Notes: generated from the sequence alone by a model not told the origin. A stretch of 64,000 bases of DNA from Myxococcales bacterium (GCA_012514535.1 JAAZAA010000299.1:1-64000); one strand, 5' to 3'. Shown: positions 1,766-21,790, counted from the first letter of the stretch. Numbers and translations: made by a program.

Positions 1766-3199
1766 TCAACCGAGCACGAGCGCGCCCCAGCCCACCGCCA
1801 GCGCAGGGCAGAGGAACGCCAAGACCAGCCCGATGCGCATGAAATCTTTCCCCTCGAGCCCTCCGGCAGAGAACGCGATGGCGTTCGGAGGCGTCGAGAT
1901 CGGCAAACACATCCCCGTCGACGCCGCCAGCGCGATCGACACCGCCGCGAGGGGCTCGAAGCCAGGAGCCAACGCCACTCCGACGGGCACGAGGATCGTC
2001 GCCGCCGCCGTGTTGCTCATGAAGTTGGACAGGATGGACGTCGTGTAGGCCATCACCAACGAGAGGGCGACGGGCGCGAGGCCCTGCACGGGCAGACGGG
2101 CGACCATCCAGCTGGCGAGCCCGGTCTCCGTGACGGCGACCCCGAGCGCGAGGCCGCCGAACAACAGGAGGAGCACGTCCCACTGGAGGGACCGCACGTC
2201 CGCCGCGCGGAGGATGCCCGTGGCAGCGAACAGACAGATCGGCACGAACGAGACGACCGGCGTGGGCACCCCGTGCCAGGTGCCGGTCATCCAGAGGATG
2301 ACGGTCAAGGTGAAGACCACCATCACGATGATCTGCCGCCACGCAGGCAACCTCTCCGAGACATCCAAGTTGGCGAACGTCGGGAGCGGCGCCGCGGCGC
2401 CGTCCTGCGCCGGGTACCACGTCCGGAGCAACGTGTAGCTGACGAGGAAGAGCGCCAGGGCGGGAGGCAGACCGATCAGGAGCCAGCGGGCGAAGTCGAT
2501 CTCGCCTTCACCCCCGACGGCGCCCGCGGCGATCGCGTTGGGCGGTGATCCGATGAGGGTCGCCATGCCCCCGAGGTTCGTCGCCACGGCGACGCCCAGG
2601 AGCAGCGCCCGGCGAGACGGATCGCCGTTCGGGCGAGCAGCGGCGATGGGCATCGCGATGGCCATCAGCATCGCCGCGGCCGCCGTGTTCGACATGAACA
2701 TGGAGAGGACGAAGCCGACCACCATCAACCCGAGCAGGGCGCGGGCTGGTGTCGTCCCGGAGATCATCAGGACCCGACGCGCCATCCAGCGGTCGAGCCC
2801 GGTCTTGCTGGCGGCTTGGCCGAGCACGAAGCCTCCCAAGAAGAGCCACAACAGCGGGCTCGCCCAGGGCGCCAGGAAGCGGTCCCAGTCCGCGCGCCGC
2901 CCCATGTCCCCGAGGAGCAGGATCTCCAAGCCGACCACGAGGAGCGCGACGCCGTAGGAGGCGACCGCCTCGGTCACCCAGAGTCCCGCCGCGAACAGCA
3001 GGATGAACAGCGCGTGGCGCCCCTGCTCGGGCAGATCCGCGTGCGCCGGCAGGTAACTGAACGACCACGCGAGCGCCAGGCAGACGACCGTCAAGACGCC
3101 TTGGCGCCACGAGCGCACCTCCAGCCGCTCGAGCAGCTCCCGTAGCTCCCGGCGCTCTTCGCTGAGGAGCGACCACCTCCTGGACGACCCTGGCTTCAT
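1766..3199 (-). CDS. SLC13/DASS-family anion:sodium symporter
   Basis: A 477-aa polytopic inner-membrane protein of the divalent anion:Na+ symporter family, which moves dicarboxylates, sulfate or in some members phosphate with sodium. Both hallmark repeats are present: SNTAAAAM followed by IGSPPNAIA in the first half, and SNTAAAT followed by ISTPPNAIAF in the second. The SNT motifs bind substrate and sodium in this family. About twelve hydrophobic segments can be counted. The track extends the frame to 3553 through an Arg/Pro-rich stretch that looks non-coding; I start at the ATG at 3199 (MKPGSSRRW). It lies 91 nt after the small lipoprotein of the TonB operon on the same strand and may be its last gene. 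The substrate is unknown; phosphate or a phosphorylated compound is possible given the Pho-like boxes upstream of the operon. Confidence 0.85.
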   Translation of the reverse strand: MKPGSSRRWSLLSEERRELRELLERLEVRSWRQGVLTVVCLALAWSFSYLPAHADLPEQGRHALFILLFAAGLWVTEAVASYGVALLVVGLEILLLGDMGRRADWDRFLAPWASPLLWLFLGGFVLGQAASKTGLDRWMARRVLMISGTTPARALLGLMVVGFVLSMFMSNTAAAAMLMAIAMPIAAARPNGDPSRRALLLGVAVATNLGGMATLIGSPPNAIAAGAVGGEGEIDFARWLLIGLPPALALFLVSYTLLRTWYPAQDGAAAPLPTFANLDVSERLPAWRQIIVMVVFTLTVILWMTGTWHGVPTPVVSFVPICLFAATGILRAADVRSLQWDVLLLLFGGLALGVAVTETGLASWMVARLPVQGLAPVALSLVMAYTTSILSNFMSNTAAATILVPVGVALAPGFEPLAAVSIALAASTGMCLPISTPPNAIAFSAGGLEGKDFMRIGLVLAFLCPALAVGWGALVLG

Positions 3200-3290
3200 G
3201 GGACCACCGGGCCCGCATGATGCCCCTCTGCCCTGCCCGACGAAAGACGGCGTTCCCAGCGGGCACCAGCGGGGGCCCAGGCGCGCCCCC

Positions 3291-3611
3291 TCAGCGCTCG
3301 CCCAGGCAGCGCACGACGACGACGCCGGAGTAGTAGGGAAAGCCTGGCCCGACGTCGTAGCGCCCCTGGTGGCGCGCCAGCTCGTAGCCCTCCGCGCACA
3401 GCTCGTCGGCCTCCTCGAGGCAGGCTTGGGGGTCGTCACGACAGGTGATGCGCCACCACCCCGCGGAACCATCGGGACCGACGACGGGCGTCGCCTGAGC
3501 CCTCGCGCTGCATCCGGCGACGACGTGGGCAGCGCACAAAAGGACCAGGCCACCCCAGGCCCGCGCGCGGGCGCTGTTCCCAGAGGACGACGAAGGCTCG
3601 GTGCGTGCCAT
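3291..3611 (-). CDS. small Cys-containing lipoprotein of the TonB operon
   Basis: A 106-aa protein with a hydrophobic N-terminal segment ending in HVVAGCSA, a good lipobox. The mature part contains WWRITC, then CLEEADELC and a terminal VVVRCLG, giving a few conserved-looking cysteines that may pair. Its ATG at 3611 overlaps the TGA of the TonB-dependent receptor (TGATG), so translation is probably coupled. I do not recognise a named family; it may be a periplasmic accessory of the receptor. The longer 421-aa track ORF is a shadow that runs in this frame through the receptor gene. Confidence 0.75.
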   Translation of the reverse strand: MARTEPSSSSGNSARARAWGGLVLLCAAHVVAGCSARAQATPVVGPDGSAGWWRITCRDDPQACLEEADELCAEGYELARHQGRYDVGPGFPYYSGVVVVRCLGER

Positions 3612-6600
3612 CAGTAGGAGTACCCCGCCGAGAGAGAGAGGACGACGCCGTTCCGGTAGCTGTGCGTGGCGCGGTCCTGTCGACGCTCGCGTCCCTGCGT
3701 CACCAAATACTGCGTGTTCAGGATGTTCTCCGCCGAGAACCCGATCTGGACCCCACCGCCGACCTCTCGGGAGACGGTCAGATCCACCTGGTGTTGCGGC
3801 TGCAGGTAGTAGTCGTCGAGCCCCGCGGTGCCCACGCGGACGATCCGCTTCCCGGTCGTGTTGTAGAGGAGACGAACGTTCGTCTCCGATGGGCCCGAGT
3901 AGTCGAGGGCGATGTTCACGACGTAGGGCGCTTGGTTGACCATGGCGCGCTCCGTGTTCGTCAAGAAGCCCACCCCCGTGGCGTCCGCTCCCGTCTGGTC
4001 GAGGCGGATGCGGGAGGTGGTCAGGGTCAGGTTCCCCATGAGGCTGAAGTCCTCCAGAGCCTCGTCGATGAACTCGAGGCTCTTGCGCGCTTCGATCTCG
4101 ACGCCGATCAGAAAGGCGCCGCGCGCGTTGCGATAGCGGAGGAAGTTCAAGCTGGAGGAGGGCTCGAGCACGGGCTCCAGCGGATCGGTGAAGTCCTTCG
4201 CGAAGGCGGAGATCGAGACGACCTCCTGCGGCGACGGGAAGTAGTCGGCCCTCAGATCCGCGTTGACGACCTTCGTGATCCTCAGGTTCGGATCGCCTGC
4301 CACCAGGGCGCCGCCGTAGTAGTCCTGGAAGGTGAAGCTCGCGAGCTCCCGCAGCTGCGGACGCGCCAAGGTCCGGCTGACCGCGCCACGGAGCTCGAGG
4401 GACTCCGACAAGGCGTAGACGACGGACAGGCTCGGGAGCACGTCCACGCTCTCGAGCTCCGCCCGGTCGCCGTCGATCTCGCGACGCGCGAACTGATCGT
4501 AGGGAGCCAGGAAGATGCGGGTGCTCTCCAGGCGCGCCCCACCGATGAGCCGCCACCGCTCGGTGAGTTGGCTGTCGCCCATCAGGTAGCCGGCGTAGAT
4601 GCCGGTCTCCGCCGAGTACGCGTCGGACTTCAGGTTCGTGTCTTCGAGGAGCTCCAGCGGAGAGCCCCCCAAGTGCTCACGAACGAAGAGGTCTCCGGGG
4701 CAGCGCGCGGAGTCGAACTCCGGGCCGCAGGTGAACACCCCGTCGTCCGCCCCGCGCGCCGTGCGAAAGGAGAAGCGACGCGCCCCGAAGATGCGCTCCC
4801 TGGTGTTCACCGCGCCGCCCACCTTCAGCTTCGTCGGCAGCTCCCCGCGGAGGATGGGCTGGGTCCAGTCGACGAACACCGCCTGCGCGTTCTCGTCCAT
4901 GTCCGCGTAGAAGTGACGGCCGCTGGTCGCGCCCCCCAAGAACGCGAAGGTATCGGACTGAGCGCCGCGGAAGTACACGGCGTCGCGCATGTCCGGCTGG
5001 CTCATGGAGGCCTTCGCCAAGGACAGCCGCCAATCGAGCTCCGCGTCGTGCAGCTCCGGGAAGGCGTGGACGCCGCGGAGCTGGGCGAAGTCGAGGGTCC
5101 GGCTCGTGAAGTCCAAACGCGAGTTACCGACGGTGCCGTCGTTGTTCGCCAGATAGCCACGGAACACCGAGGTGGTGTCGTCGGCGAGCTGACTGCGCAT
5201 CGCGAGCAGGTTGATCGCGTGGTGCTCCCCGAGCTCGAGACCGATGATCCCGAAGCTCCCCCAACGGACCGACTCGCGCCCCAGGCGGCGCCGGGCATCG
5301 ATCGAGACGCTCAGCGCGTCGCTGCCTCCTTCACCGGTCGGGATGAACTCTCGGATGAGCTCGTCACGGACGGTGTACTTGCGCCCGTAGGTCAGAGCAC
5401 CTACGGCCCCCAGGCGCGCGCCCCTGCCCAAGTCCCAGCCATTGCCCAGCATGACGGTCCCGCCGTGATGGGGTGGGGTGAACGCCCGCGTCGTGTTCAT
5501 CGGGTTGTCGAAGGCGGGACCCAACCCATCGATGTCTCCGCGCCCGATCCGGTCGCCCTCGGGGGTCCTCTGCCCGGGGGCGAGCGCGTAGTCCCGGGGG
5601 ACCTCATCGGGCAGCGCCCGGTGCCCGTCGTCGATCCCCAGCCAGTCCGTGCTCCCCCCGTCGTAGGAGAGGCGATGGCGGAAGGTGGCCTGGCTGTTCC
5701 AACCTGCCTTTAGGGAGAAGTTGAAGAGCAGACGCTCCGGCACGGTGATCGTCTCGATGCGCACCGAGCCGCCAGCGAAATCCGCGGGCATGTCGGGGGT
5801 GAACGTCTTGGCGATGTCGATGGACCGGATCGTCTGCGTCGGGAAGAGATCGAGCGGGACCGTCGCCCTGTCCGGCTCCGGGCTCGGCAGGGTCGATCCG
5901 TTCACCAACGCGTTCGTGTACCGCTCACCCAAGCCCCGCACATAGACGAAGCGGCCGTCGACGATCGTGACCCCCACGACCCGCTGCGCGGCGCCTGCGG
6001 CGTCGCCCGCGGGCGTCCGCGAGATGTCCTCCGAGGTGATGGCGTCGGTCAGGGAGGCAGACTCCCGCCGCTCGTCCATGTAGGCCGCCACGCTGCCCTC
6101 GATGTGCGGCGCGGTGACGACGAAGTCGTCCAGGGCCACGGAGGACGGCGCGAGCTCGATCTCGATCTCCCGAGTGCGAGCGGCGTCGACGACGACCTCC
6201 GAGCGCGACTCCGTCGAGTAGTCCGTGTGGATGACGGACAGATCCCACGTGCCCTCCGGCAGCTCGACCCGAAAGCGCCCCTGCTCGTCCGTAACGGCCT
6301 CCACGGGCGCTCCCCGAACGTACACCTTGGCCCCGGCGACGGGCGCCTTGGCCTCCAGCGCCCGCACGACGCCCACCAGCGTCCCGATGGCTTCACTCGG
6401 CTCGTCCGGTGCTTCCTGGCGGGCCTCCCGAGCTTCGCTGGCCTCCGCCCCTTCGACGAGGAGCGACTCCACCGTCCCGTCGAGCCGCAGCGTGGCCACG
6501 AGCTCGGCGGTCTGCCCCGCGACGAGCCGGATCTGCCCCAGGTCCAATCGGAGCGCTCCGGTCCCCGGAGCCTCGGGCACCAACGCTCGGGGGACGGTGA

Positions 6601-7003
6601 GGCCGACGCGAGCGACACGCGACGCGGCTTCCCGGACGCCCTCCGTCGCGCTCACGAGCTCCGCGCTGCCGTTCTCGTTGGTCCGAGCCGCCACCATCGC
6701 GCCGTGCGCCACACTCACCGCGCCGTGCTCCAGCGTCACCGACACGTCAGCGGCTGGCGTCGCTCCCACGAACACCAGGACGTGGAGCTGCGTCGTCCCC
6801 TGGTGTCCTGCCTCCGGCGCCCCTGGTCCTTCGTGACCCGTCGCTTCTTGAGGTGTCGCCTCCTGGGCCGCCTCCTTTGCCGCCACTTCCTGGACCTCCT
6901 CGGGCACCGCTTCTCGAGACAGCGCAGACGGCGCCGAGAACAGGGTCACCGAGACGACGCCCACGCGGATCATCCCCGACCGCAACCATCGGATCGTTCG
7001 CAT
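3611..7003 (-). CDS. TonB-dependent outer-membrane receptor with carboxypeptidase-regulatory-like domain
   Basis: A 1130-aa outer-membrane receptor. It has a signal peptide (about 1-29), a Glu/Ala-rich low-complexity region, and a CarboxypepD_reg-like beta-sandwich that includes the stretch DEQGRFRVELPEGTW. Then come a possible TonB box (DDFVVTAP), a plug domain with VYVRGLGERYTN and FAGGSVRIET, and a long beta-barrel ending in an aromatic residue (GYSY), as barrel proteins do. The track start (GTG at 7309) lies inside the preceding lipoprotein gene; the ATG at 7003 precedes a clear signal peptide. It sits downstream of a full TonB2-type motor and of a paired lipoprotein. The substrate is not readable from sequence; phosphate-related cargo is inferred from the putative Pho boxes. 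Confidence 0.92.
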   Translation of the reverse strand: MRTIRWLRSGMIRVGVVSVTLFSAPSALSREAVPEEVQEVAAKEAAQEATPQEATGHEGPGAPEAGHQGTTQLHVLVFVGATPAADVSVTLEHGAVSVAHGAMVAARTNENGSAELVSATEGVREAASRVARVGLTVPRALVPEAPGTGALRLDLGQIRLVAGQTAELVATLRLDGTVESLLVEGAEASEAREARQEAPDEPSEAIGTLVGVVRALEAKAPVAGAKVYVRGAPVEAVTDEQGRFRVELPEGTWDLSVIHTDYSTESRSEVVVDAARTREIEIELAPSSVALDDFVVTAPHIEGSVAAYMDERRESASLTDAITSEDISRTPAGDAAGAAQRVVGVTIVDGRFVYVRGLGERYTNALVNGSTLPSPEPDRATVPLDLFPTQTIRSIDIAKTFTPDMPADFAGGSVRIETITVPERLLFNFSLKAGWNSQATFRHRLSYDGGSTDWLGIDDGHRALPDEVPRDYALAPGQRTPEGDRIGRGDIDGLGPAFDNPMNTTRAFTPPHHGGTVMLGNGWDLGRGARLGAVGALTYGRKYTVRDELIREFIPTGEGGSDALSVSIDARRRLGRESVRWGSFGIIGLELGEHHAINLLAMRSQLADDTTSVFRGYLANNDGTVGNSRLDFTSRTLDFAQLRGVHAFPELHDAELDWRLSLAKASMSQPDMRDAVYFRGAQSDTFAFLGGATSGRHFYADMDENAQAVFVDWTQPILRGELPTKLKVGGAVNTRERIFGARRFSFRTARGADDGVFTCGPEFDSARCPGDLFVREHLGGSPLELLEDTNLKSDAYSAETGIYAGYLMGDSQLTERWRLIGGARLESTRIFLAPYDQFARREIDGDRAELESVDVLPSLSVVYALSESLELRGAVSRTLARPQLRELASFTFQDYYGGALVAGDPNLRITKVVNADLRADYFPSPQEVVSISAFAKDFTDPLEPVLEPSSSLNFLRYRNARGAFLIGVEIEARKSLEFIDEALEDFSLMGNLTLTTSRIRLDQTGADATGVGFLTNTERAMVNQAPYVVNIALDYSGPSETNVRLLYNTTGKRIVRVGTAGLDDYYLQPQHQVDLTVSREVGGGVQIGFSAENILNTQYLVTQGRERRQDRATHSYRNGVVLSLSAGYSY

Positions 7004-7078
7004 AACTTTCGACTGCTTCGCCCCGACTCTTCGGGTTCCGCGGGGGGATCGACACACCCCGATGCGGGCACGGAGGCC

Positions 7079-7115
7079 CTGCCACCGCCAGCTCATCGCG
7101 AGCTCGCGGCGGCAG
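7079..7115 (-). other. intercistronic stem-loop before the receptor gene
   Basis: Arms CTGCCACCGCCAGCTC (7079-7094) and GAGCTCGCGGCGGCAG (7100-7115) pair at 14 of 16 positions around a 5-nt loop. It lies in the 131-nt gap between the beta-strand-rich lipoprotein and the receptor gene, with no T-tract on the minus strand. It may act as an mRNA processing or stability element rather than a terminator. Confidence 0.55.
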
Positions 7116-7134
7116 GTCGGCCCGGGTCTTTCTG

Positions 7135-8532
7135 TCAGTCCACGCTCCAGTCGACCCACAGGCCCTGCATCCAGTCCGCCTCGTCCTTGAAGGCGCCCAG
7201 GCCGGAGCCCGTCACTGCCGAGCCGGGGCCGTCCGCGGCGAGACAGTCCGAGAGCTCGAAGGGCGGCTCGTCCGGCACCTCGTTGCCGCGCTCCTCGAAC
7301 TCGAACCACTCCACCGGGTCGAGGGGAGGATCACTGCTGTCATGGACCGTCCCGATGACGTTCACGTGGTTCTCGAAGAACGTCGAGTCCGTGAGGAGCA
7401 CCCGCGGCTCCTCCGCCGTCCCTGCCGGATCGCGCAGGCTCACCCCGTTGTGCCAGCCGAGGAACACCTGATCCGTGAAGGTCCCCGTCACCCCGCGGCG
7501 GAACACGGCGCCGTTCGACGTCGTCGCCAGGCCCTCGCCGGGCCCGCAGAGGGTGACCTTGCTCGACGTCACGTTCGTGACCGGCTCGAGGTCGGGGTTG
7601 CTGCTGTTGTTGTCGCACTCCCAGCCGTTGGGGTCGCGGGAGTCCACGTCCGTCCTCGTCAGGCGGCCGAAGAGCGTGTGGAGCTCCCCGTTGTAGCCCT
7701 GATCCGCGTCGAACATGTCGTCGTCGGCGTTGTGGGCGATCAGATGGTGGGCGTTCACCGTGCCGCCGAACCACTCGAACGCGTCGTCGAGGGCGTTCGA
7801 CACCATGACGTGATGGACCTCGGTTCCCCTGCCGACGCTCCCGAACGTGATGCCGTTGATCTCGTTGTCCGGCGCGATCTCCACGCCCGGGAACTCGATG
7901 CGCACGTACTTGATCACGCCGCTGTCGTCGTCCGGATCGTCGCCGCCGTGCTGGTACTTCGGGTCCGGATCCAGTCCCTCGATGTTGACGCTGCCTTGGT
8001 TGTTCGGAGCGCGCCCGAGGATCACGATGCCGCCCCAGTCGCCCGGGCGACGCTCCCCCTCCTCGGCCCAGCTCGTGAACAAGATGGGAGCGTCCGGCTC
8101 TCCCGCGGCGATGATCTTCGCGCCGCGGGAGACCACCAGCACGCTGTTGCCGTTGGCCCCTTCCGGCTGTCCCTCGATCCTCGTGCAAGGCTCGATGGTG
8201 AGCGTGCTGCCTTCTTCGACGTAGGTCAGGCCGTCGAGCAGCCAGACCTTGTCGCTCGTCAACGTCATATCCGGGTTCTGCGGGATGACGGCCTCCTCCT
8301 TGTCGCCGCGGGAGAGATCGCACTCGCCTGAGTTCATGCGGCCTCCAGAGCCGGAGCCCGAGTCGTTGCCGCTACCGCCGCTCCCGTCGTCCCCGGCGCT
8401 GCCGCCCGAGCTGGCGCCGCCCGAGCTGGCGCCGCCCGTGTTGCCGCCGTCGCCGCCGTTCTCGTCATCACCGCACGCGACGACGCAGGTCGTCGCCGCG
8501 ATCAAAGACAGAAGTGAAATCGTTCGGTTCAT
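7135..8532 (-). CDS. beta-helix-like lipoprotein paired with the TonB receptor
   Basis: A 465-aa lipoprotein. The signal peptide ends in CVVACG, a lipobox, followed by a Gly/Ser/Asp-rich linker. The mature domain contains short beta-strand turns (LTIEPCTRI, SVLVVSRGAKIIA, PILFTSW, WGGIVILG, TEVHHVMVSN), the pattern of a right-handed parallel beta-helix. Acidic loops such as ADDDMFDADQ could bind calcium or another cation. Start at the ATG at 8532, behind GAGGAG at good spacing. Related surface lipoproteins are often encoded next to TonB-dependent receptors, where they may capture substrate; that role is inference. Both flanking gaps contain stem-loops. Confidence 0.75.
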   Translation of the reverse strand: MNRTISLLSLIAATTCVVACGDDENGGDGGNTGGASSGGASSGGSAGDDGSGGSGNDSGSGSGGRMNSGECDLSRGDKEEAVIPQNPDMTLTSDKVWLLDGLTYVEEGSTLTIEPCTRIEGQPEGANGNSVLVVSRGAKIIAAGEPDAPILFTSWAEEGERRPGDWGGIVILGRAPNNQGSVNIEGLDPDPKYQHGGDDPDDDSGVIKYVRIEFPGVEIAPDNEINGITFGSVGRGTEVHHVMVSNALDDAFEWFGGTVNAHHLIAHNADDDMFDADQGYNGELHTLFGRLTRTDVDSRDPNGWECDNNSSNPDLEPVTNVTSSKVTLCGPGEGLATTSNGAVFRRGVTGTFTDQVFLGWHNGVSLRDPAGTAEEPRVLLTDSTFFENHVNVIGTVHDSSDPPLDPVEWFEFEERGNEVPDEPPFELSDCLAADGPGSAVTGSGLGAFKDEADWMQGLWVDWSVD

Positions 8533-8606
8533 TGGTTGCTCCTCATCATTTCCCAAGCGCGGCTCTCGCGCGCTCGCTGCAGAGCTCGTGCTCGCGCCCT
8601 CTCTTT

Positions 8607-8637
8607 GCCCGTCCCGGATGGCAACTCCGTGACGGGC
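8607..8637 (-). other. intercistronic stem-loop between TPR and lipoprotein genes
   Basis: GCCCGTCCCGGA (8607-8618) pairs with TCCGTGACGGGC (8626-8637) at 11 of 12 positions around a 7-nt loop. It lies in the 147-nt gap between the TPR gene and the lipoprotein gene, with no T-tract after it in the minus direction. Confidence 0.5.
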
Positions 8638-8679
8638 GGGCGACTTCTCGGCAAGGCAGAGGCCAACGGGTCGGGGTGC

Positions 8680-10014
8680 TCAGAGGCACTCCCAGCCGGC
8701 CTGCGCGCACGATTCCATCGCGCGCCGCAGCTGGACCGCGCTCTCGAAGAGACGTGGTTCGCGGATGTGCTGCAGCTGCAGCTCTGCTTCTCGCAGCTCG
8801 CCGCTACGGAAGTACCCATAGGCGAGCGCGTAGCGCACGCTGTCGTCCTGAAGCAGGCCGAGGCGCTCGAGCCGGGGCGCCATCGCCACGATCGTCTCGT
8901 AGCGCTCGAGCTCGATGAGGATGCTCAGGCGCTGCTTCATCTTGCGTGCCTGATCGGCGACGCGCGCGTTGAGGGTGAGCGCCCGTTCGAGGCGTCCAGC
9001 CCGCAAGTACAGCTCAGCCGCCTCCAGCGCGTACTTGGGGTTTCGGCGCGCGGCGTCTTCGAACAGCAGGGCCGCCACGAGGGGACGGTCCTCGTCGAGG
9101 TACACGTGGGCCAGGAGCACTGTCAGCTTCTCGTCTTCGGGGAAGACCAGGTGCGCGGCCTCCAAGACGTCGCGAGCCTTCTCCAGCTGCTTGGCCCGCC
9201 GCAGCCCCTCGGCGACGGCGGCGTAGTCGTCCGCCGTGACCCCAGGGCGCGCGAGATACGCCGCGCCGACCCGGGCCACCTCCTGGAACAGACCGAGTTC
9301 GATGAGGTAGAGGATGTGGACGCGGCCGAACTCGGCCTCTTTGGGGAACGCCTTCTGACCGGCGACCAGCGCCGCCAGCGCCTGCGCCGGCTGCTCGAGC
9401 TCCCAGTGACTTTGAGCTCGCATCATGAACGTCCCGGGGACGTCGGAGCCGGCGCTGCCGGCGCGGGCCAGCGCCTCGAGCACCTTGGCGTAGCTCTTCT
9501 CCCCGAAGTGCGCCTGAGCGAGGTAGAGGAACACGGCGGGCTGCTGCTGCCCCGCCGCGATGGCGCGCTCGAAGCTCTTTCGCGCCGCGTCGTACTGCCG
9601 CCCGTCGAGGGCGATGAGCCCCCGCAAGGTATGGTATCGGGGCAGATCGAGTTCCGGCTGCTGCGGGTCGACCTGATCGAGGACGACGCGAGCGCGATCG
9701 AAGTGACCGTCCTTGACCAGCTTCGCTGCGAGCGCGAGATGGTCGATCTCCTCTCGGTCCTCCGCCTCTTCCTGCTTCTCGTCCTTGGCATCGGCCGGGC
9801 CCTCCGCGACGACGAACGCGGCCGCAGCGAGCGCCAGCAAGACGACTCCGGGCCGCCGTCGACGGCCTCGCCTTGCCGCCAGCCGCTCCGCCGACCTCCG
9901 CCCCGTCGATGGTCGCTCGATCGACTGTCGTCCAGCCAACGACTGAACCTCCGACGCCTGTCCCGGCGACTCGTCGGCACCGTCGTCTGCGCGAGGGCGT
10001 ATTCTATCCATCAT
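8680..10014 (-). CDS. TPR-repeat protein of the TonB system
   Basis: A 444-aa protein with an Arg-rich N-terminus, a membrane or signal segment (GVVLLALAAAAFVVAEG, about residues 56-72), and then tandem 34-residue helical repeats of TPR type, for example DLPRYHTLRGLIALDGRQYD and AVFLYLAQAHFGEKSYAKVL. The C-terminus ends in a Cys pair (CAQAGWEC). In TonB2-type loci of Vibrio and Shewanella a periplasmic TPR protein follows tonB and is thought to link the energising complex with the receptor. It begins 10 nt after the TonB stop, so it is in the same operon. The large plus-strand ORF 8536-10215 is its antisense shadow. Confidence 0.85.
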   Translation of the reverse strand: MMDRIRPRADDGADESPGQASEVQSLAGRQSIERPSTGRRSAERLAARRGRRRRPGVVLLALAAAAFVVAEGPADAKDEKQEEAEDREEIDHLALAAKLVKDGHFDRARVVLDQVDPQQPELDLPRYHTLRGLIALDGRQYDAARKSFERAIAAGQQQPAVFLYLAQAHFGEKSYAKVLEALARAGSAGSDVPGTFMMRAQSHWELEQPAQALAALVAGQKAFPKEAEFGRVHILYLIELGLFQEVARVGAAYLARPGVTADDYAAVAEGLRRAKQLEKARDVLEAAHLVFPEDEKLTVLLAHVYLDEDRPLVAALLFEDAARRNPKYALEAAELYLRAGRLERALTLNARVADQARKMKQRLSILIELERYETIVAMAPRLERLGLLQDDSVRYALAYGYFRSGELREAELQLQHIREPRLFESAVQLRRAMESCAQAGWECL

Positions 10015-10024
10015 AGCACATCCC

Positions 10025-10657
10025 TCAGTTCAGCTCGAACCGGACGACTTGATCCATCCAGGTCTCGACCGGGCTTCCCTGGTACACGGCGGGTTCGAAC
10101 TCCCACTGGCGCACGGCGGCGAGGGCCGCCTCCTCGAAGACGCCGCGCGGCTTCGCCTCCACGACGCGAACACGGCCGATCTCCCCGTTCGCGCCGAGCA
10201 GGATCTTCAACTTGACGTACCCGGTGATGCCGCGCTGTCGGGCCTTGTCCGGATACGCAGGCGCGGTGCGCCGCCGCGGCTTGGGGAGCTCGTCGACGAC
10301 CTCCGCGGTCATCGTGGTGTGCTTGGTCGTGTCTCCGAGCAGCTGGTCGCCGAGGGAGCCGAAGTCCGCCACGGCCAACCCAGGTAGCGAGAAATCGATG
10401 CCGCCGATGGCGTTCGCCAGCTGAGGCGTCGGCGCCCGTGGCGCCGCGGACGTCTTCACCTCCCGCCGCTTTCGAGGCTTCGGCTTCTCCTTTTTCGGTG
10501 GAGGTTCCTTCGCGACCGCGAACTCGGCGCTCGGGGACTTCTCCTCACCAGGAGGCGGCGGAGCCAACGAGTTCATCGCGAACACCGAGGCCAAAGCGGT
10601 CGACCCGCCCAGCACCATGCTCGCCAAGCCACACAGATGTCGTCTGAAGTTCACCAC
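10025..10657 (-). CDS. tonB: TonB energy-transducing protein
   Basis: A 210-aa TonB. It has a short N-terminal hydrophobic segment, a periplasmic Pro/Lys-rich spacer (PPPKKEKPKPRKRR), and a C-terminal TonB domain with AYPDKARQRGITGYVKLK, EAALAAVRQWEFEPA and a final VRFEL strand. It transmits proton-motive-force energy from ExbB/ExbD to outer-membrane receptors. I use the GTG at 10657, which follows AAGGGAGG by six bases; the track start at 10732 lies inside exbD. Its closest match by domain pattern is the short TonB2 type. Confidence 0.93.
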   Translation of the reverse strand: MVNFRRHLCGLASMVLGGSTALASVFAMNSLAPPPPGEEKSPSAEFAVAKEPPPKKEKPKPRKRREVKTSAAPRAPTPQLANAIGGIDFSLPGLAVADFGSLGDQLLGDTTKHTTMTAEVVDELPKPRRRTAPAYPDKARQRGITGYVKLKILLGANGEIGRVRVVEAKPRGVFEEAALAAVRQWEFEPAVYQGSPVETWMDQVVRFELN

Positions 10658-10674
10658 GGTGGGCCTCCCTTTCG

Positions 10675-11079
10675 TCAGCCGGCTTCCTTCTCCGTAGCCA
10701 CGCCCACCTCCACCGCTCCCGCGAGGCGGCACTGGTCCACGACCTCGACGAGCCGCTCGGCCGTCACGCGCCGGTCGGTGATCACCAGCACCTGGGAGGA
10801 GGCACCGCTCTCGAGGAACTCACGGACGCGGCTCTGGACCATCCATGGCCGCACGGGGGTTCCATCGACGTAGATGTTGGAGCTCGAGTCGATGTTGACG
10901 CGGAGCGCCTTCCCGGAGGCGCGCTCCGCGCTGGCTGCCCCGGGGCGTTCGATGTCGACCTTCATGTCCTTGACGAAGGTCGTCGAGACCATGAAGAAAA
11001 TGAGCAGAATGAACACCATGTCGATGAGGGGTGAGATGTCGATGCTCCCTACCTCCTCGGTCTTCCTGCGACGTCTCAT
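10675..11079 (-). CDS. exbD: ExbD biopolymer transport protein
   Basis: A 134-aa protein with one N-terminal transmembrane segment and the family motif IDISPLIDMVFILLIFF, in which the Asp (LID) carries protons through the ExbB/ExbD channel. The periplasmic part ends with a typical ExbD fold (VLVITDRRVTAERLVEVVDQ). Its ATG overlaps the exbB stop (ATGA). It is hidden inside a longer track ORF (10675-11649) whose N-terminal half is a shadow of exbB. Confidence 0.93.
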   Translation of the reverse strand: MRRRRKTEEVGSIDISPLIDMVFILLIFFMVSTTFVKDMKVDIERPGAASAERASGKALRVNIDSSSNIYVDGTPVRPWMVQSRVREFLESGASSQVLVITDRRVTAERLVEVVDQCRLAGAVEVGVATEKEAG

Positions 11080-11702
11080 GGATTCCCCACTCGTGGTTCT
11101 CCGGAGCACGACGGCTCCGTGCACAAGATGTCCTTGAGCTGCTCCAGCTCGCGGACGAGGTTCGCTTGGCGGCGGTCGAGGAACCGCCCGACGATCAGCC
11201 CGGGCACGGCGACGCTCAAGCCCATCTGCGTGGTGAACAGCGCTTGCGAAATCCCCCCAGCGATGCCACCGGATTGGGAGAACAACGACATGTCCGCCAG
11301 GGAGTCGAAGGTCTCGATCATGCCCGTGACCGTCCCGAGGAGCCCCGCCAGCGGCGCGACCGCCACGACGCTGGCGATCAGGATGCGCCCTCGCCCGAGC
11401 TGCCCCTCGACGTCCGCGAACGCGTCGTCGAGGACGCGCCGGAGATCGACGCGGTGCAGATCCACACCCCGCGCGAGCTCGAGCCCCCGGATGACCGCGG
11501 CGTCGATGACCCCGCGCGGCTCCCGCAGCTGGCCGTTCCGGTATCGCTCGACGAGCACGCGCACACTCCTGGGGCTGCCACGTCGCAGGGTCAGGAGCCG
11601 ATACCCCAGCGCGTACCACAGCACGAACGTGCCGATGACGAGCGGCCACATGATGAAGCCGCCGCTGTGCACGTAGTCGAGCAACGAGCGCACCGGTCCC
11701 AT
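11076..11702 (-). CDS. exbB: ExbB proton channel protein
   Basis: A 208-aa MotA/TolQ/ExbB-family protein with three transmembrane segments: MWPLVIGTFVLWYALGY, IASVVAVAPLAGLLGTVTGM, and a third around FTTQMGLSVAVPGLIVG. The GTVTGM segment is the conserved family signature. It forms the proton channel with ExbD. Its ATG at 11702 shares its A with the TGA of the upstream TtpC-like gene. It is embedded in a longer composite track ORF (11076-13244). Confidence 0.92.
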   Translation of the reverse strand: MGPVRSLLDYVHSGGFIMWPLVIGTFVLWYALGYRLLTLRRGSPRSVRVLVERYRNGQLREPRGVIDAAVIRGLELARGVDLHRVDLRRVLDDAFADVEGQLGRGRILIASVVAVAPLAGLLGTVTGMIETFDSLADMSLFSQSGGIAGGISQALFTTQMGLSVAVPGLIVGRFLDRRQANLVRELEQLKDILCTEPSCSGEPRVGNP

Positions 11703-13105
11703 CACGAGACCTCCACGAGACTCCCTGGCAGCTCCGAGGAGGGGACAGGGGGCGGCGGCGGCGTGCTCAGGGCGACGCCCGTCGCGATGTTCGTGACGCG
11801 CAGCGCGGACTTGTCCATGGCGTCCTTGATGTTCTCTGCCCAGCCGGTCAGCAGGTTGCCGACGAGCAGGGCCGGGATGGCGACGATGAGGCCGAGCTCC
11901 GTCGTGATCAGCGCCTCGGAGATGCCGCCCGACAGCAACTTCGGGTTCCCGGTGCCGAACTCGGTGATGACGTCGAAGGTGGCGATCATGCCCGTCACGG
12001 TCCCCAGCAAGCCCAGGAGCGGCCCCACCGCGGCGCACACGAGGATCGCCGAGCCGAAGCGATCGAGGTGAGGTTGTTCGTGGAGGACGCTCTCGGAGAT
12101 CACGTCCTCCAGGTGGTCGCGGGGGCGATCGATGTGCTTCAGGGTCGCCGTGAGTACGCGGCCTGCCGCGCTCTTCGCGTTGCCGCACACCGCGAGCGCG
12201 CCCGCCACGTCCCCCACCCGCAGCTTCGGGATGATCTCGTCCACGAGCCGATCCGTGTTGCTCGCGGCACGCCAGAGGAACAGGCCGCGCAGCGCGATCA
12301 TCACGAGCGCGGCGAAGCCGAGCACGACGATTACCCAGCCGATCGGCCCCCCCGCCTTCACGACGTCCAGCGCCGTCTTCTCCTGGCGAGCCTCGACTCC
12401 CTTGTCGAGTGCCTCGTAGAGAAAGAGCTTCAAACGCTCCGGGCTCGCGCCGTTTGCCAGCGCGATGGCCGTTTCCGCGGTCGCGTTCTCGGGCCACACC
12501 TTCAGCTGCCCGTCTCCAGCGGGAGCCAGCGCGCCAGCGACCTGGTCGCTCACCCCGTAGCTGGCGATGTTGCCGACGCGCAGGATCGTCCCGCGCACCT
12601 GGCGCCCCGTGGCAGAGAAGAACTCTCCCTCCTCCCGACGCACGCTCCCCTGGCGCTCGAGCAGCTCCACGACCTTGCGGAAGGCGAAGCGCACCTGCTC
12701 GACCACGGCGGTCTCGCCCTCCTGCGCCACCGGGAGCTTCTCGCCGCCCCGCTCGAGCGCGGCGGCGGCCTGGGTCAGCATTCCCGCGAGAACGTCGCCT
12801 CCTTCTTGGGCGGTCTCGGCCTGGGTCTCCGTCTGCATGAGCTGGTCCGCGAGGCGATCGGCCTCGAGGGCAGCGCCCATCACCTTCCCCTGGAGCGTCG
12901 CGAGCTCCTCCTCCGCCTCCGCGACGGTCTTGGCGGCGCGCGCGTCCAGGTCTCGGATCCGCTGCTCCAGGGCGCTGCGTTCGGCTTCGAGGAAGGCGAA
13001 CTCCCGCTTGTAGGCCGCGTCCAGCGCGGCCTGGTCCTGGGCGGTGGCCCAGGTGGCTCCCAACAGCGTGAACGACGTCACCAGCACCATCGTCAGCGTG
13101 CGCAT
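11702..13105 (-). CDS. TtpC-like MotA/TolQ/ExbB protein with periplasmic coiled coil
   Basis: A 467-aa protein combining a signal peptide (ending ATWATAQ), a long predicted periplasmic coiled coil (about 25-110, rich in Glu/Ala/Leu heptads), a linker domain, and a C-terminal three-TM ExbB module with the signature LLGLLGTVTGMIATF. In Vibrio TonB2 systems the equivalent TtpC is a fourth essential component, thought to reach across the periplasm. The start is the ATG at 13105, which overlaps the TGA of the DUF3450 gene; the track uses a GTG one codon earlier. It is translationally coupled on both sides. Confidence 0.88.
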   Translation of the reverse strand: MRTLTMVLVTSFTLLGATWATAQDQAALDAAYKREFAFLEAERSALEQRIRDLDARAAKTVAEAEEELATLQGKVMGAALEADRLADQLMQTETQAETAQEGGDVLAGMLTQAAAALERGGEKLPVAQEGETAVVEQVRFAFRKVVELLERQGSVRREEGEFFSATGRQVRGTILRVGNIASYGVSDQVAGALAPAGDGQLKVWPENATAETAIALANGASPERLKLFLYEALDKGVEARQEKTALDVVKAGGPIGWVIVVLGFAALVMIALRGLFLWRAASNTDRLVDEIIPKLRVGDVAGALAVCGNAKSAAGRVLTATLKHIDRPRDHLEDVISESVLHEQPHLDRFGSAILVCAAVGPLLGLLGTVTGMIATFDVITEFGTGNPKLLSGGISEALITTELGLIVAIPALLVGNLLTGWAENIKDAMDKSALRVTNIATGVALSTPPPPPVPSSELPGSLVEVS

Positions 13106-13908
13106 CACTTCGCCTCCGGGGGCAACGCGTTCGGGAGCTCGAAGTAGCCGATACGGATCTGCTTCTTCTGACTCTCGAACAGGGCCTCGACGAGCCGCTG
13201 GTCCTCACGCTTCTCGAGCCTGCGGTACTCCCAATTTCCGTCACTGCGAGCGGCGTACCCGACGGAGCCGTCGCTCGTCTTGAAGAAGAGCATGACCATG
13301 CCGACGCGGACCACGTCCGCCAGGAGCTCCTCGCCAGCGAGCTCGATCGACTGGCGGTACATTCCGCTCTCCCGCGCGAGTCGCAGCTCGTCCTCGGCGA
13401 AGGTCCACAGGCGCGCCAGCGCCCGCGGCGGCGTGAGCAACCCTGAGCTCAGCTGATCGTCGATCTTGTCGAGCTCCGCCAGGCGCTCTCCCCTCCGGAA
13501 GGGCAGCGAACGCTCCACATAAGCCCGGAGCTCCGCGAGGCTCTCCGCGTAGAGAGGCTTCAGGGCCTCGTCCCCCTGCTGCTCCTCGGCGATGACCTTC
13601 TTCTTTTGGGCGATCGCCGACCGGATCTTCTGGAGGCGCACCTGCTCCTTCTGGAGCTCGAGCTTCAGGTCCGACTTCTGGCGCGCCAGAGACCTCACCT
13701 GATCCCTCAGGTCGTTGTCCTTGCGCGAGAGCTCTGCCGAAAGCTCCTCGACCTCGCCGCGCAGGGCGGCGAGGCGGCGACCGAGATCGACGACCTGATC
13801 GCCGACGGCGGGCGCCGCCACGGTGAGTCCACCGACGAGGAGCGCCCCGCGCAGCGCGCGGCCGACCCATGGTCGAGATGATGTTGGATGGTTTGGATGT
13901 CGGGACAT
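13105..13908 (-). CDS. DUF3450 periplasmic coiled-coil protein
   Basis: A 267-aa protein. A signal-type N-terminus (ALRGALLVGGLTVAAPAVGD) is followed by a long coiled coil (about 40-120), then a domain with GLLTPPRALARLWTFAEDELRLARESG and a C-terminal strand-rich part (RIGYFELPNALPPEAK). These features match DUF3450, which regularly opens TonB2/TtpC operons in proteobacteria. It is the first gene of the operon, so the upstream Pho-like boxes would control the whole set. I prefer the ATG at 13908, preceded by AAGG; a GTG at 13926 is also possible. Confidence 0.85.
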   Translation of the reverse strand: MSRHPNHPTSSRPWVGRALRGALLVGGLTVAAPAVGDQVVDLGRRLAALRGEVEELSAELSRKDNDLRDQVRSLARQKSDLKLELQKEQVRLQKIRSAIAQKKKVIAEEQQGDEALKPLYAESLAELRAYVERSLPFRRGERLAELDKIDDQLSSGLLTPPRALARLWTFAEDELRLARESGMYRQSIELAGEELLADVVRVGMVMLFFKTSDGSVGYAARSDGNWEYRRLEKREDQRLVEALFESQKKQIRIGYFELPNALPPEAK

Positions 13909-13971
13909 CGCCTTGCCTTGATTCACTCTCTGGGCGGCACCGGGCCGCTCCGTGCAGTGTCGAGGACCGCC

Positions 13972-13987
13972 TTGACGTTCCCGTGAC
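13972..13987 (-). promoter_or_regulatory. putative Pho box 2 of the TonB operon
   Basis: On the minus strand this reads GTCACGGGAACGTCAA: two GTCA-type half sites with 11-bp period, the layout of a PhoB-binding box. It lies about 65 bp upstream of the DUF3450 start, facing the operon. Confidence 0.5.
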
Positions 13988-14014
13988 CTGCGCGAAAATC
14001 GATCGTGCCGAACG

Positions 14015-14030
14015 ATGACGACTTCGTGAC
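14015..14030 (-). promoter_or_regulatory. putative Pho box 1 of the TonB operon
   Basis: On the minus strand this reads GTCACGAAGTCGTCAT, almost the same as the box in front of the response regulator gene on the other strand and 43 bp upstream of box 2. The half sites are 11 bp apart. E. coli Pho boxes are CTGTCAT-type repeats with the same period. Confidence 0.6.
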
Positions 14031-14142
14031 CGAGGAGCGCCCGGCCCGTGTCAGCCGCTTCGTTGGGCGAGAGACTGGAGACGCTTCGTGACGAACCCGT
14101 GGCGTCTCCGGAAAATCCAGGTGACCCGATTCTTGCGGGAGC

Positions 14143-14169
14143 TTCATCGATCGGTCACGGAACCGTCAT
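14143..14169 (+). promoter_or_regulatory. putative Pho box of the response regulator gene
   Basis: TTCAT (14143), GTCAC (14154) and GTCAT (14165) form three direct half sites with exact 11-bp period; weaker half sites continue upstream at 14132 and 14121. The last half site ends 24 bp before the ATG at 14194, so the transcript would have a very short leader. It suggests autoregulation by a PhoB-like protein. Confidence 0.6.
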
Positions 14170-14193
14170 GTGGCCCGAGTATCGACGCTGGGT

Positions 14194-14994
14194 ATGGGGA
14201 CCATCGTCATCGTCGACGACGAGCAGGACATCATCGACGTCCTCGAGTTCAACCTGCGGCAGGCCGGCCATGAGGTCTTGCCGGCGACGCGCGGGCGCGC
14301 GGGACTCGAGCTGGCGCTCACGAAGCGCCCCGACCTCGTCATCTTGGATCTGATGCTGCCCGACCTCTCGGGCACCGAGCTGTGCCGCGCCCTACGGAGC
14401 GCCACCCAGACGCGCAACACCCCCGTCCTGATGCTGAGCGCCCGGGGAGAGGAGATCGATCGAGTGGTCGGCTTCGAGCTGGGGGCGGACGACTACGTGA
14501 CGAAGCCCTTCAGCGTCCGTGAGCTGCTGCTCCGGGTCCGCGCCCTGCTGCAGCGCTCTCGGTCCACGGCCCCGGAGCGCACGTCCTTCGTCGAGTTCGG
14601 TCGCCTCGGGATCGACCGAGACGCGCACAGGATCTGGGTGAACGACACGGAGGTGCCCCTGACGGCCCTGGAGTTCCGGCTGCTCGTGACGTTGTTCGAG
14701 CGAAGGAACCGGGTCCAGACGCGAGCCGCCCTCCTGGAGCACGTCTGGGGCATGAACGCTCACATCTCGACGCGCACCGTCGACGCCCATGTGAAGCGGC
14801 TCCGCGAGAAGCTCGGCGCCGCCCGGGAGTACGTCGAGACGGTGCGCGGAGTCGGCTACCGCTTCCGCGACGCTCCGGAGCCCGGTGACAGCGGCACCCA
14901 TCTCACTCGCCGCGCAGGGGAGGACCCTGGCGCGGACGGGGGGGCCGACGTCGCCGGTGCTCCCCCCGGTGGTCCCCGCGCCGCCGTGCCCTGA
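14194..14994 (+). CDS. PhoB-like OmpR-family response regulator
   Basis: A 266-aa regulator with an N-terminal receiver domain (acidic pair in VDDEQD, phospho-acceptor Asp in LVILDLMLPD, switch Lys in YVTKPF) and a C-terminal winged helix (TRTVDAHVKRLREKLG, then VETVRGVGYRF), the PhoB/OmpR layout. A low-complexity Gly/Ala/Pro tail of about 35 residues follows. I use the ATG at 14194; the track GTG at 14170 overlaps the putative Pho box. No histidine kinase gene is adjacent, so the partner must lie elsewhere. The shared intergenic region with Pho-like boxes pointing both ways suggests that it regulates itself and the TonB operon. Identity as PhoB is inference. Confidence 0.85.
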   Translation: MGTIVIVDDEQDIIDVLEFNLRQAGHEVLPATRGRAGLELALTKRPDLVILDLMLPDLSGTELCRALRSATQTRNTPVLMLSARGEEIDRVVGFELGADDYVTKPFSVRELLLRVRALLQRSRSTAPERTSFVEFGRLGIDRDAHRIWVNDTEVPLTALEFRLLVTLFERRNRVQTRAALLEHVWGMNAHISTRTVDAHVKRLREKLGAAREYVETVRGVGYRFRDAPEPGDSGTHLTRRAGEDPGADGGADVAGAPPGGPRAAVP

Positions 14995-15635: not shown

Positions 15636-16937
15636 ATGGCATCCGACTCGCTCACTCCCCCTCCCCTCGAGCCGAACTCCAACGATCCGCTTCGCGTCTA
15701 TCTTCGGAAGATGGGCACCGTGCCGCTCCTCACCCGCGAGGGCGAGGTCGAGCTGGCCAAGCGCATCGAAGAAGGGACCAACGCCGTTCGGGACGCGCTG
15801 TTCTCCAGCCCCGTCATCATCGACGAGCTGACCCGAACGAGTGAGCTGCTCCAAGAGAACCGTGTCCGGGCCCGCGAGCTCCTGAACGTCGAAGCCGACG
15901 ACGACAGCTTCGACGAGGAGGCCGCCGCCAACCACCTGGTCGAGCAGATCGACAAGATCAAGCGCGTCGCCAAGCGACGAGGCTCCCTGCTCAACGGGCA
16001 GCCCGCGGATGCCCGCCAGACGAAGGCCCAAGCCGAGCTCGAGAAGCTGCTGCTCGAGCTCAACCTCAACAAGCGGACCATCGACAAGATGGCGCAGAAG
16101 CTGAAGGCCAAGGCGCTCATCGAGCCCGGCCCCGACAGCGACGTCTCGCAGGAGGAGCACGAGACGCTGCGGCGCCTCTCCCTCGAGGTCAGCCGCGGCG
16201 AGCGACGGGCGCAGCAGGCCAAGGCCGCCTTGGTCGAGGCGAACCTGCGGCTCGTCGTCTCCATCGCCAAGCGCTACACGAACCGTGGCCTGCAGCTGCT
16301 CGACCTCATCCAGGAGGGCAACATCGGCGTGATGATCGCCGCCGACAAGTTCGAGTATCGGCGCGGGTACAAGTTCAGCACGTACGCGACCTGGTGGATC
16401 CGCCAGGCCATCACTCGTGCGATCGCCGACCAGGCGCGCACCATCCGCATCCCGGTGCACATGGTGGAGACCATGAACAAGATGCACCGGACCGCCCACG
16501 ACTTGGTGCAGGAGCTCGGCCGCGAACCCACACCCGAAGAACTCGCGCAGCGCCTCGATATTCCCGTTTCCAAGGTCCGGAGCCTGCTCCGCATCGTGAA
16601 GGAGCCCTTGAGCCTCGAGACCCCGCGCGGCGAGGACGGGGACTGTACCTTGGGCGACTTCGTGGAAGACCAGAAGGCGCCCAGTCCCTCCGATAGCCTG
16701 ATGTCGAATGACCTCAACAAGCAGACGCGCGAGCTCCTGAACTCCTTGAGCGTGCGCGAGCAGCGCGTCCTCCAGAAGCGCTTCGGCATCGGGGAGAAGA
16801 GCGAGCACACCCTCGAAGAGATCGGCAAGGAGTTCAACGTCACCCGCGAGCGCATCCGGCAGATCGAGGCCAAGGCGCTGCAGAAGCTCAAGAGCTCCCG
16901 CCGCTCGCGGTCCCTCAAGGCGTACCTCGAGCAGTGA
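15636..16937 (+). CDS. rpoD: RpoD-family RNA polymerase sigma-70 factor
   Basis: A 433-aa sigma factor. Region 1.2 begins at once ([21 protein letters not shown]), followed by a charged non-conserved region, region 2 ([40 protein letters not shown]), region 3, and region 4 with the -35-binding helix ([24 protein letters not shown]). The primary-sigma core motifs are nearly intact, but region 1.1 is absent and region 2.2 reads [17 protein letters not shown] where the usual form is [17 protein letters not shown]. It could therefore be the housekeeping factor or a group-2 relative. A probable terminator follows. Confidence 0.85.
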
Positions 16938-17034: not shown

Positions 17035-17143
17035 GGCCGGCGCATCGGCTCAGGCGTCTCCGAGCGGGACGCACCAGCGACGTTCCCGGGGGCGTCCATG
17101 CGTGGAAACGCGCTGATTTTGGACGCGAGCCGAGGACATGGCG

Positions 17144-17160
17144 TTGGCAGCGCCCTTGCA
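17144..17160 (+). promoter_or_regulatory. sigma-54 promoter candidate of the exopolysaccharide locus
   Basis: TTGGCAGCGCCCTTGCA carries TTGGCA and TTGCA with exact GG-N10-GC spacing, differing from the sigma-54 consensus at two positions. Predicted start is near 17171, giving a leader of about 44 nt before the priming transferase ATG. Confidence 0.65.
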
Positions 17161-17214
17161 TTGGCCGGAGGGACGGGTGGGCCGTCTTCCATCCCCCACC
17201 CCGAACGAGGTGCC

Positions 17215-18636
17215 ATGACTCGACTGGGCCAGCAGAACTACGGGCCCCTGATGTCTCACACCACGGCGGTGTCCAGCGCTCAGCGCATCAGTGACGGCTG
17301 CCTGATCGCTGCGACCTACTGGTTGGTGGAGGGACTCCGCCCGCAGTCTTGGAACGTTTACAACACGCTCGCGCTCGTCCTCACCGTCGTCATCTTCCTG
17401 ATCGTCGCGGAGACCAACGGGCTCTATCGCTCCTGGCGTGGCGTCGCGCTCCGGCACGAGCTGCAGCACACGGTCGCGACCTGGTTCCTGGCGACCCCCA
17501 TCTTGCTGTTCACCGCGTTCCTCACGGAGACGAGCGAGGAGTTCTCTCGCATCGGCACGGTGGTGTGGTTCATCGTGACGCCGACCGCGCTCGTGGTCTG
17601 GCGGGCGGCCATGCGCAGCCTGCTCGCCGAACTGCGCCGACGTGGCTACAACAACAAGTCCGTCGCGATCGCGGGCTGCACCGCCTCCGCGGGCGCCTTG
17701 CTCGATCACATCGAGCGCGACCCGAGCGCCGGCATGCGCCTCTACGGGGTCTACGACGATCGCGCGGCGGCGCGGCGCACCCCGATGGAGCACATCGGCG
17801 GGCCGTTCCGCGGCGATCTCGACCAGCTCGTCGACGACGCCCGCGCGGGCAAGATCGACCTCGTCTACATCAGCTTGCCGCTTCGGGCCGAGACGCGCAT
17901 CGCGTCCATCCTGCGCAAGCTCGGAGACACGACGACCACCGTCTACGTCATCGCAGACTTCTTCGGGTTGAGCTTGCTGCACTCGGAGTGGTCCACCGTC
18001 GGGCATCTGCCGGTGGTCAGCCTCAACGACACGCCGTTCAACGGCCTCGGCGGCTGGGCCAAGCGGGTCGAGGATCTCGTTCTGGGGACCATCATTCTCA
18101 TGCTCACCGCGCTGCCCATGCTCGTGGTCGCGATCGCCATCAAGTTGACGAGCCCGGGTCCGGTGTTCTTCCGGCAACGCCGCTACGGGCTGAACGGGAA
18201 GGAGATTCGCGTTCTCAAGTTTCGCACGATGACCGTTTGTGAGGACGGGGACGAGGTCAAGCAGGCCAGCCGAGACGACGCACGGATCACGCGCCTCGGT
18301 CTGTTCCTGAGGCGCACCTCGCTCGACGAGCTGCCTCAGTTTTTCCAGGTCATCACGGGCGAGATGTCCATCGTCGGGCCGCGGCCGCACGCCGTCGCCC
18401 ACAACGAGGAGTACAGGAGAGTGATCGACGGCTACATGCTCCGCCACAAGGTGAAGCCGGGCATCACTGGTTGGGCGCAAGTGAACGGCTGGCGCGGGGA
18501 GACGGACGCGCTCGACAAGATGCGCATGCGTGTCCAGCACGACCTCGAGTACATCCGCAACTGGCGACTCGGGCTCGACATCTGGATCATCTTCATGACG
18601 GTGTTCAGCCCGAAGGCGCGCACGAACGCCTACTGA
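17215..18636 (+). CDS. undecaprenyl-phosphate sugar phosphotransferase (WcaJ/EpsZ-like)
   Basis: A 473-aa polyisoprenyl-phosphate hexose-1-phosphate transferase that starts repeat-unit synthesis at the inner membrane. It has four N-terminal hydrophobic segments, a nucleotide-binding-like middle domain (KSVAIAGCTASAGALLDHI), a further TM (LILMLTALPMLVVAIAIKL), and the C-terminal bacterial sugar transferase domain with SPGPVFFRQRRYG, KFRTM, RRTSLDELPQF and a final KPGITGWAQVNGWRGET. The length is usual for the WcaJ/EpsZ group. I start at the ATG at 17215 (RBS GAGG) rather than the track GTG/ATG at 17098. It is probably the first gene of the polysaccharide locus and has its own sigma-54-type promoter. 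Confidence 0.93.
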   Translation: MTRLGQQNYGPLMSHTTAVSSAQRISDGCLIAATYWLVEGLRPQSWNVYNTLALVLTVVIFLIVAETNGLYRSWRGVALRHELQHTVATWFLATPILLFTAFLTETSEEFSRIGTVVWFIVTPTALVVWRAAMRSLLAELRRRGYNNKSVAIAGCTASAGALLDHIERDPSAGMRLYGVYDDRAAARRTPMEHIGGPFRGDLDQLVDDARAGKIDLVYISLPLRAETRIASILRKLGDTTTTVYVIADFFGLSLLHSEWSTVGHLPVVSLNDTPFNGLGGWAKRVEDLVLGTIILMLTALPMLVVAIAIKLTSPGPVFFRQRRYGLNGKEIRVLKFRTMTVCEDGDEVKQASRDDARITRLGLFLRRTSLDELPQFFQVITGEMSIVGPRPHAVAHNEEYRRVIDGYMLRHKVKPGITGWAQVNGWRGETDALDKMRMRVQHDLEYIRNWRLGLDIWIIFMTVFSPKARTNAY

Positions 18637-18700
18637 TTTCGTCCGTATCTCTGGCGCGCCCGCCCCGAGCGGTCGTTGCCACAAGGAAGGGGAACGCTAG

Positions 18701-19933: not shown

Positions 19934-19990
19934 GCCCGCGCGCTCCCGGTGTCGCTACGGGAAGACTTCGGAAGGACCGCACTCGGTTCC

Positions 19991-21783: not shown

Positions 21784-21790
21784 GGCCGAC

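Follow-up and report, generated by a model that had tools for sequence, protein, structure and literature searches.

Gene content and organization of the operon

The 64,000-nt stretch of DNA analysed here (the window) comes from a Myxococcales bacterium (GCA_012514535.1, JAAZAA010000299.1:1-64000) with a draft genome of 5.77 Mb in 442 contigs, and carries a putative operon that joins a TonB2-type energizer module to a TonB-dependent receptor (TBDR), two lipoproteins and an SLC13 symporter. Its ten open reading frames (ORFs) all lie on the minus strand, from 13908 down to 1766. The first six encode a DUF3450/TtpB-like coiled-coil protein (13105..13908; PF11932, 101 bits; start at ATG 13908, GTG 13926 also being possible), TtpC with a periplasmic extension and an ExbB-like domain (11702..13105; PF01618, 95.6 bits), ExbB (11076..11702; PF01618, 86.7 bits), ExbD (10675..11079; PF02472, 87.5 bits), TonB (10025..10672; PF03544, 78.4 bits) and a TtpD-like tetratricopeptide repeat (TPR) protein (8680..10014; TPR families, at the position of ttpD2, PMC6957404). 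There follow a putative ElpS-family beta-helix surface lipoprotein (7135..8532), the TBDR (3611..7003) with plug, barrel and carboxypeptidase-regulatory domains (PF07715/PF00593/PF13620; best NCBIfam model TIGR01782, below its cut-off), a small lipoprotein recognized from sequence features (3291..3611) whose start overlaps the receptor stop (TGATG), and the SLC13/DASS symporter (1766..3199; TIGR00785, 266 bits). An earlier reading of the sequence (the original prediction) had given the same ten genes in the same order on one strand and had described a TonB2-type module joined to a receptor and a surface lipoprotein; ORF calls, gene order and Pfam/NCBIfam matches to DUF3450, two MotA/ExbB proteins, ExbD, TonB_C, TPR and DASS/SLC13 confirmed both points. 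Neither lipoprotein matched any Pfam or NCBIfam model.

The intergenic gaps are, in gene order, -1, -1, -4, 2, 10, 147, 98, -1 and 91 bp, and the 98-bp gap before the receptor grows to about 131 bp with ATG 7003 as the receptor start. Coupling is tight within the set from DUF3450 to TPR (overlaps or at most 10 bp) and between the receptor and the small lipoprotein. Scans for promoter and terminator consensus sequences were uninformative in this GC-rich sequence.

A PhoB-like regulator and Pho-like boxes upstream of the operon

Divergent from the operon lies a response regulator gene of the OmpR family (14170..14994, plus strand), for which the best NCBIfam model is that of PhoB (TIGR02154); because its score of 242 bits is under the model's cut-off of 296, we refer to it as PhoB-like. 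It is 59% identical to the other close copy in the genome, a PhoB that is grouped elsewhere with phoR-like, pstS, pstC, pstA and pstB genes. The 243-bp gap between regulator and operon (13927-14169) holds three of the four GTCA-N7-GTCA sites of the window, whereas Markov simulations gave a mean of 0.017 sites in the gap and none of 5000 runs reached three. Across the genome there were 40 GTCAC-N6-GTCA sites versus 12 for a reversed control pattern, and at the genome rate 0.0017 sites would be expected in the promoter gap (Poisson P for three, about 8e-10). Two of the 11-bp repeats stand before DUF3450 on the minus strand, GTCACGGGAACGTCA at 13973..13987 and GTCACGAAGTCGTCA at 14016..14030, and three tandem half-sites with 11-bp spacing (TTCAT/GTCAC/GTCAT; 14144..14168, plus strand) lie directly 5' of the PhoB-like gene. 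This last layout matches that of the pstS gene of the same genome, which has three tandem half-sites with an 11-bp period just upstream, and in three relatives from the same family (L039, L040 and L042) a box of this kind likewise lies in the gap separating regulator and operon. With direct 11-bp GTCA repeats upstream and in common with pst, the promoter is classed, on its sequence, as Pho-box-controlled. Strict boxes counted over whole loci of distant Myxococcota were only mildly more frequent than in controls (0.24 vs 0.15 per 10 kb), and the argument from boxes is therefore limited to the promoter gap, the genome itself and relatives from the same family. From the boxes and the PhoB-like neighbour, production of the surface lipoprotein is predicted to be induced by phosphate starvation.

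Two tandem PhoB-like genes with GTCA-type boxes nearby were observed beside the operon in L042 (371-1078 and 1666-2358) and also in L039, and a further tandem GTCAC repeat with an 11-bp period occurs in the window's own genome (G000:C297:1887-1912).

The surface lipoprotein and its receptor

The beta-helix lipoprotein begins with a lipoprotein signal and lipobox (VVAC), MNRTISLLSLIAATTCVVAC, the cysteine of which is kept in a 20-member alignment. Homologues were found in 105 of the 237 genomes of the phylum sample, some weak matches among these stemming from the Gly-Ser-rich N-terminus, and also in Bacteroidota, Poribacteria, Eisenbacteria, Krumholzibacteriota, Acidobacteria and Gammaproteobacteria; the closest named relatives are in Sorangiineae and Myxococcales genomes, which makes a myxobacterial origin probable. 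In the alphaproteobacterium Indioceanicola, a homologue (34% identical) and a TBDR (27% identical to that of the window) are found directly before type II secretion (gsp) genes, the same arrangement as reported for Caulobacter cc0170 (elpS) and cc0171 (PMC2996285), and the Flavobacterium lipoproteins discussed below are related to ElpS (PMC8115612). Assignment of the window lipoprotein to the ElpS (CC_0170) family is provisional, resting on the Indioceanicola bridge and on the latter report. An AlphaFold2 model (predicted local distance difference test score, pLDDT, 82.7) gave a confident beta-helix from about residue 70 on, and a fold search of the PDB returned no confident match, only weak beta-helix resemblances (E >0.001). 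Residues D249, D250, E253, D271, D272, D275 and E305, together with R211 and N226, do not vary across 120 sequences; the acidic set is spaced about one helical turn (rung) apart, which suggests a metal-binding or catalytic face.

Domain number varies within the family, with two copies of the beta-helix domain in the Indioceanicola lipoprotein (L204:7276-10146) and three domain matches in a 1356-aa protein from Alteromonas (L205:8818-12888). Two gammaproteobacterial homologues (L121:9530-11191 and L132:9539-11176) have another N-terminal domain, no evident lipobox and no adjoining TBDR, and represent an orphan branch of the family.

Pairing of lipoprotein and receptor was assessed at 119 independent loci of the lipoprotein, spread over several phyla (39 in Myxococcota, 80 in others), with 40 TBDR loci of the same genomes as controls; a strong receptor member was one scoring more than 300 bits to the profile of the window-type receptor. 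Such a receptor was present at 101 of the lipoprotein loci (31/39 in Myxococcota, 70/80 in the others) and at none of the control loci, where the maximum was 43 bits. By this comparison the receptor, CC_0171-like, is the usual partner of the lipoprotein. A PhoB-like neighbour, defined as more than 150 bits to the pst-linked PhoB within a 20-kb stretch, accompanied 13 of the 39 Myxococcota loci versus 0/40 controls (Fisher P 3e-5), and ExbB-type genes accompanied 29/39 versus 3/40; elsewhere the pair lies near Pit, PhoU, PhoU-like DUF47 or Pst genes. The link to phosphate proposed in the original prediction is thus borne out by the PhoB-like regulator, the pst-type boxes, the Pho neighbourhoods in other taxa and the published induction of homologues under inorganic phosphate (Pi) starvation.

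An arsenite-efflux-pump-like membrane protein, so named from resemblance only, recurs near the pair at four loci (including L062:11640-12698). An OprO-like porin was dropped as a candidate neighbour, the protein concerned (in L123) having no Pfam match, and recurrent antisense ORF clusters at the compared loci were disregarded as frame shadows.

An apparent exchange of the energizer module

The order TtpB-TtpC-ExbB-ExbD-TonB-TtpD equals that of the Vibrio vulnificus TonB2 system (ttpB2-ttpC2-exbB2-exbD2-tonB2-ttpD2; PMC6957404), which places the module in this type. Within the phylum, the receptor and lipoprotein genes occur in two arrangements, with TonB-ExbB-ExbD-ExbD or with a DUF3450 module. 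In the receptor tree a starred set of seven unites the window with six relatives from the family, all carrying TonB-ExbB-ExbD-ExbD, and the lipoprotein tree likewise placed the window with relatives carrying this classic module (branch support was SH-aLRT only). The DUF3450 module was found in only two others of 60 family genomes, one of them of the same genus; the window TtpC scores 516-528 bits against the corresponding gene in two family relatives. In one of the two genomes the module is followed by an apparent TBDR start at the contig end, a fragment without a Pfam match. Because receptor and lipoprotein group with TonB-ExbB-ExbD-ExbD relatives and yet the window has a DUF3450 module, the TonB2-type module appears to have replaced an ancestral TonB-ExbB-ExbD-ExbD in this lineage while the receptor pair was kept; the direction and timing of this exchange are what we infer from the trees.

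Proposed function and alternative explanations

In our view the operon probably encodes an outer-membrane uptake machine that is induced by phosphate starvation and brings its own power supply. When phosphate runs low, PhoB-type regulators would be activated, bind the GTCA repeats and turn on the operon as well as the divergently transcribed regulator gene. The ElpS-family lipoprotein, at the cell surface, would capture or help to process a phosphorus-containing ligand, and the receptor would import it, driven, as the roles of the families suggest, by a dedicated TtpB-TtpC-ExbB-ExbD-TonB-TtpD complex standing in place of the TonB-ExbB-ExbD-ExbD of the relatives. Freed phosphate would then enter through PstSCAB, encoded elsewhere in the genome, with the SLC13 protein and the small lipoprotein as likely local additions. 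Gene content, boxes and conserved pairing are observed in the sequences; phosphate-starvation induction and surface location are carried over from published work on homologues, and we infer PhoB binding, TonB-driven import and the nature of the ligand.

Several points weigh against this interpretation. No histidine kinase gene is adjacent at the locus, and the curated PhoB cut-off is not reached by the regulator, nor indeed by the pst-linked PhoB (241 bits). Internal promoters are possible in the three larger gaps (91-147 bp), those ahead of the beta-helix lipoprotein, receptor and SLC13 genes. In Caulobacter, cc0171 was reported to be constitutive, and deletion of elpS left phosphatase activity unchanged (PMC2996285).

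A narrower form of the same explanation, compatible with it, is that organic phosphorus is what the Pho-controlled lipoprotein acts on, as an enzyme or as an activator of phosphatases, and that the receptor imports an organophosphate or a fragment of one, not inorganic phosphate. Excess ElpS raised extracellular phosphatase activity (PMC2996285), the authors of the Flavobacterium study prefer organic phosphorus (PMC8115612), and the invariant acidic residues resemble a catalytic or metal-binding face; purified ElpS, however, was without phosphatase activity (PMC2996285), the operon has no phosphatase gene, and the lipoprotein lacks a confident fold match in the PDB. We judge this form plausible and place it slightly below an even chance.

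The original prediction had gone further and suggested that the route might span both membranes, with SLC13 taking phosphate or a phosphorylated compound over the inner one. The outer-membrane part, consisting of receptor, lipoprotein, TonB2-type module and Pho control, stood, but the SLC13 step did not, and we regard it as very unlikely. In its favour, the gene lies on the operon strand 91 bp downstream of the small lipoprotein gene, with no strong terminator found between it and the upstream operon genes, so that it may be co-transcribed. Its product does belong to the DASS family; among proteins of solved structure, VcINDY (151 bits) is the nearest to it and Pho90 (121 bits) the next. SLC13 was, however, found at none of the 119 other lipoprotein loci, and its closest homologue in the 60 family genomes (50% identity) is unlinked to any TonB gene. 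Its motifs, SNT/SNT and GSPPN/TPPN, are those of the dicarboxylate carrier VcINDY, Pho90 having SNV/SHT and SSPQN/SGFPN; judged by the Pho90 binding-site motifs it falls outside the Pho87/90/91 type. A dicarboxylate-type binding site with a matching phenotype had been named beforehand as evidence against the route, and its sequence half is what the motifs gave. The genome, moreover, already encodes PstSCAB, which argues against a phosphate role, and SLC13 is probably an incidental neighbour outside the uptake system. The small lipoprotein had no homologue at other lipoprotein loci, only weak matches elsewhere in the family (E 4e-8 or poorer), and was rejected as a conserved partner on this ground.

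Iron or siderophore uptake with Pho-like boxes arising by chance is hardly credible, although the six-gene TonB2 module is known to serve iron-siderophore uptake (PMC6957404). Against it stand the box clustering (P about 8e-10), the PhoB-like neighbour, the Pho neighbourhoods elsewhere and the F. johnsoniae homologues, for which Pi depletion is the sole inducing condition listed (PMC8115612).

Outside the operon, a primary-type sigma-70 factor gene (15636-16937) lies near the PhoB-like gene, and exopolysaccharide genes (sugar transferase, Wzy-like ligase, polysaccharide export protein and nucleotidyl transferase) occupy 17098-27306.

Comparison with known systems and significance

Among the closest described systems is ElpS/Cc0171 of Caulobacter crescentus, in which a surface-anchored lipoprotein, probably of the same family and made only under phosphate starvation, is associated with a neighbouring TBDR (PMC2996285). 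Unlike that locus, the window operon has no type II secretion genes and has a TonB2-type module and a divergent PhoB-like gene. In Flavobacterium johnsoniae, PUSIII and PUSIV (Fjoh_3856/3857 and Fjoh_0545/0546) likewise pair a TonB-dependent transporter with a related lipoprotein, inside or next to a phoBR cluster, and are strongly induced by Pi depletion, the Fjoh_0545 transporter and the Fjoh_0546 lipoprotein of the phoBR operon by 8.0 and 9.9 log2, respectively (PMC8115612); these clusters differ from the window in having no described energizer genes and belong to another phylum. The V. vulnificus TonB2 system shares all six gene families in identical order but is iron-regulated and serves siderophore receptors (PMC6957404), whereas in the window the module is joined to a receptor pair and preceded by Pho boxes. 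Plasmid pBGP9 of Alteromonas macleodii (NZ_OX359244.1) carries, on one stretch, phoB-phoR-PstS gene-2-oxoglutarate (2OG) oxygenase-lipoprotein-TBDR-DUF3450-ExbB-ExbB-ExbD-TonB. TGTCA-type repeats, each with one mismatch, precede its lipoprotein gene. The locus resembles the window in combining a Pho regulator, lipoprotein, TBDR and DUF3450 module. Its TBDR is 31% identical to the window receptor over 856 columns and its PhoB 40% identical to the window regulator, but its lipoprotein has several domain copies and its gene order differs.

The receptor-lipoprotein pair and the energizer are each known separately, then, and similar combinations are present in public genomes such as pBGP9, on which locus we found no publication. 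Nor did we find in the literature a description of a PhoB-DUF3450-ElpS operon; two features, for which no prior description was found, are new here: the union of the receptor pair, Pho boxes and a TonB2-type motor in a single operon, and the apparent switch from one motor to another while the receptor pair stayed the same. More tentatively, and with rather less confidence than in the uptake machine itself, the ElpS protein might lid or feed the receptor in the manner of SusD, within a dedicated, self-powered importer of phosphate or phosphorus compounds that is spread over many phyla and keeps its receptor pair while swapping between two types of TonB motor.

The ElpS/Cc0171 pair came to light in 2010 and, separately, the Flavobacterium PUS lipoproteins in 2020. 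That one operon unites the pair with Pho boxes and a TonB motor of its own suggests an active uptake system and not merely a helper of secreted phosphatases. Because porins are usually held to let phosphorus compounds through the outer membrane, an energized route there would, if widespread, matter for phosphorus cycling.

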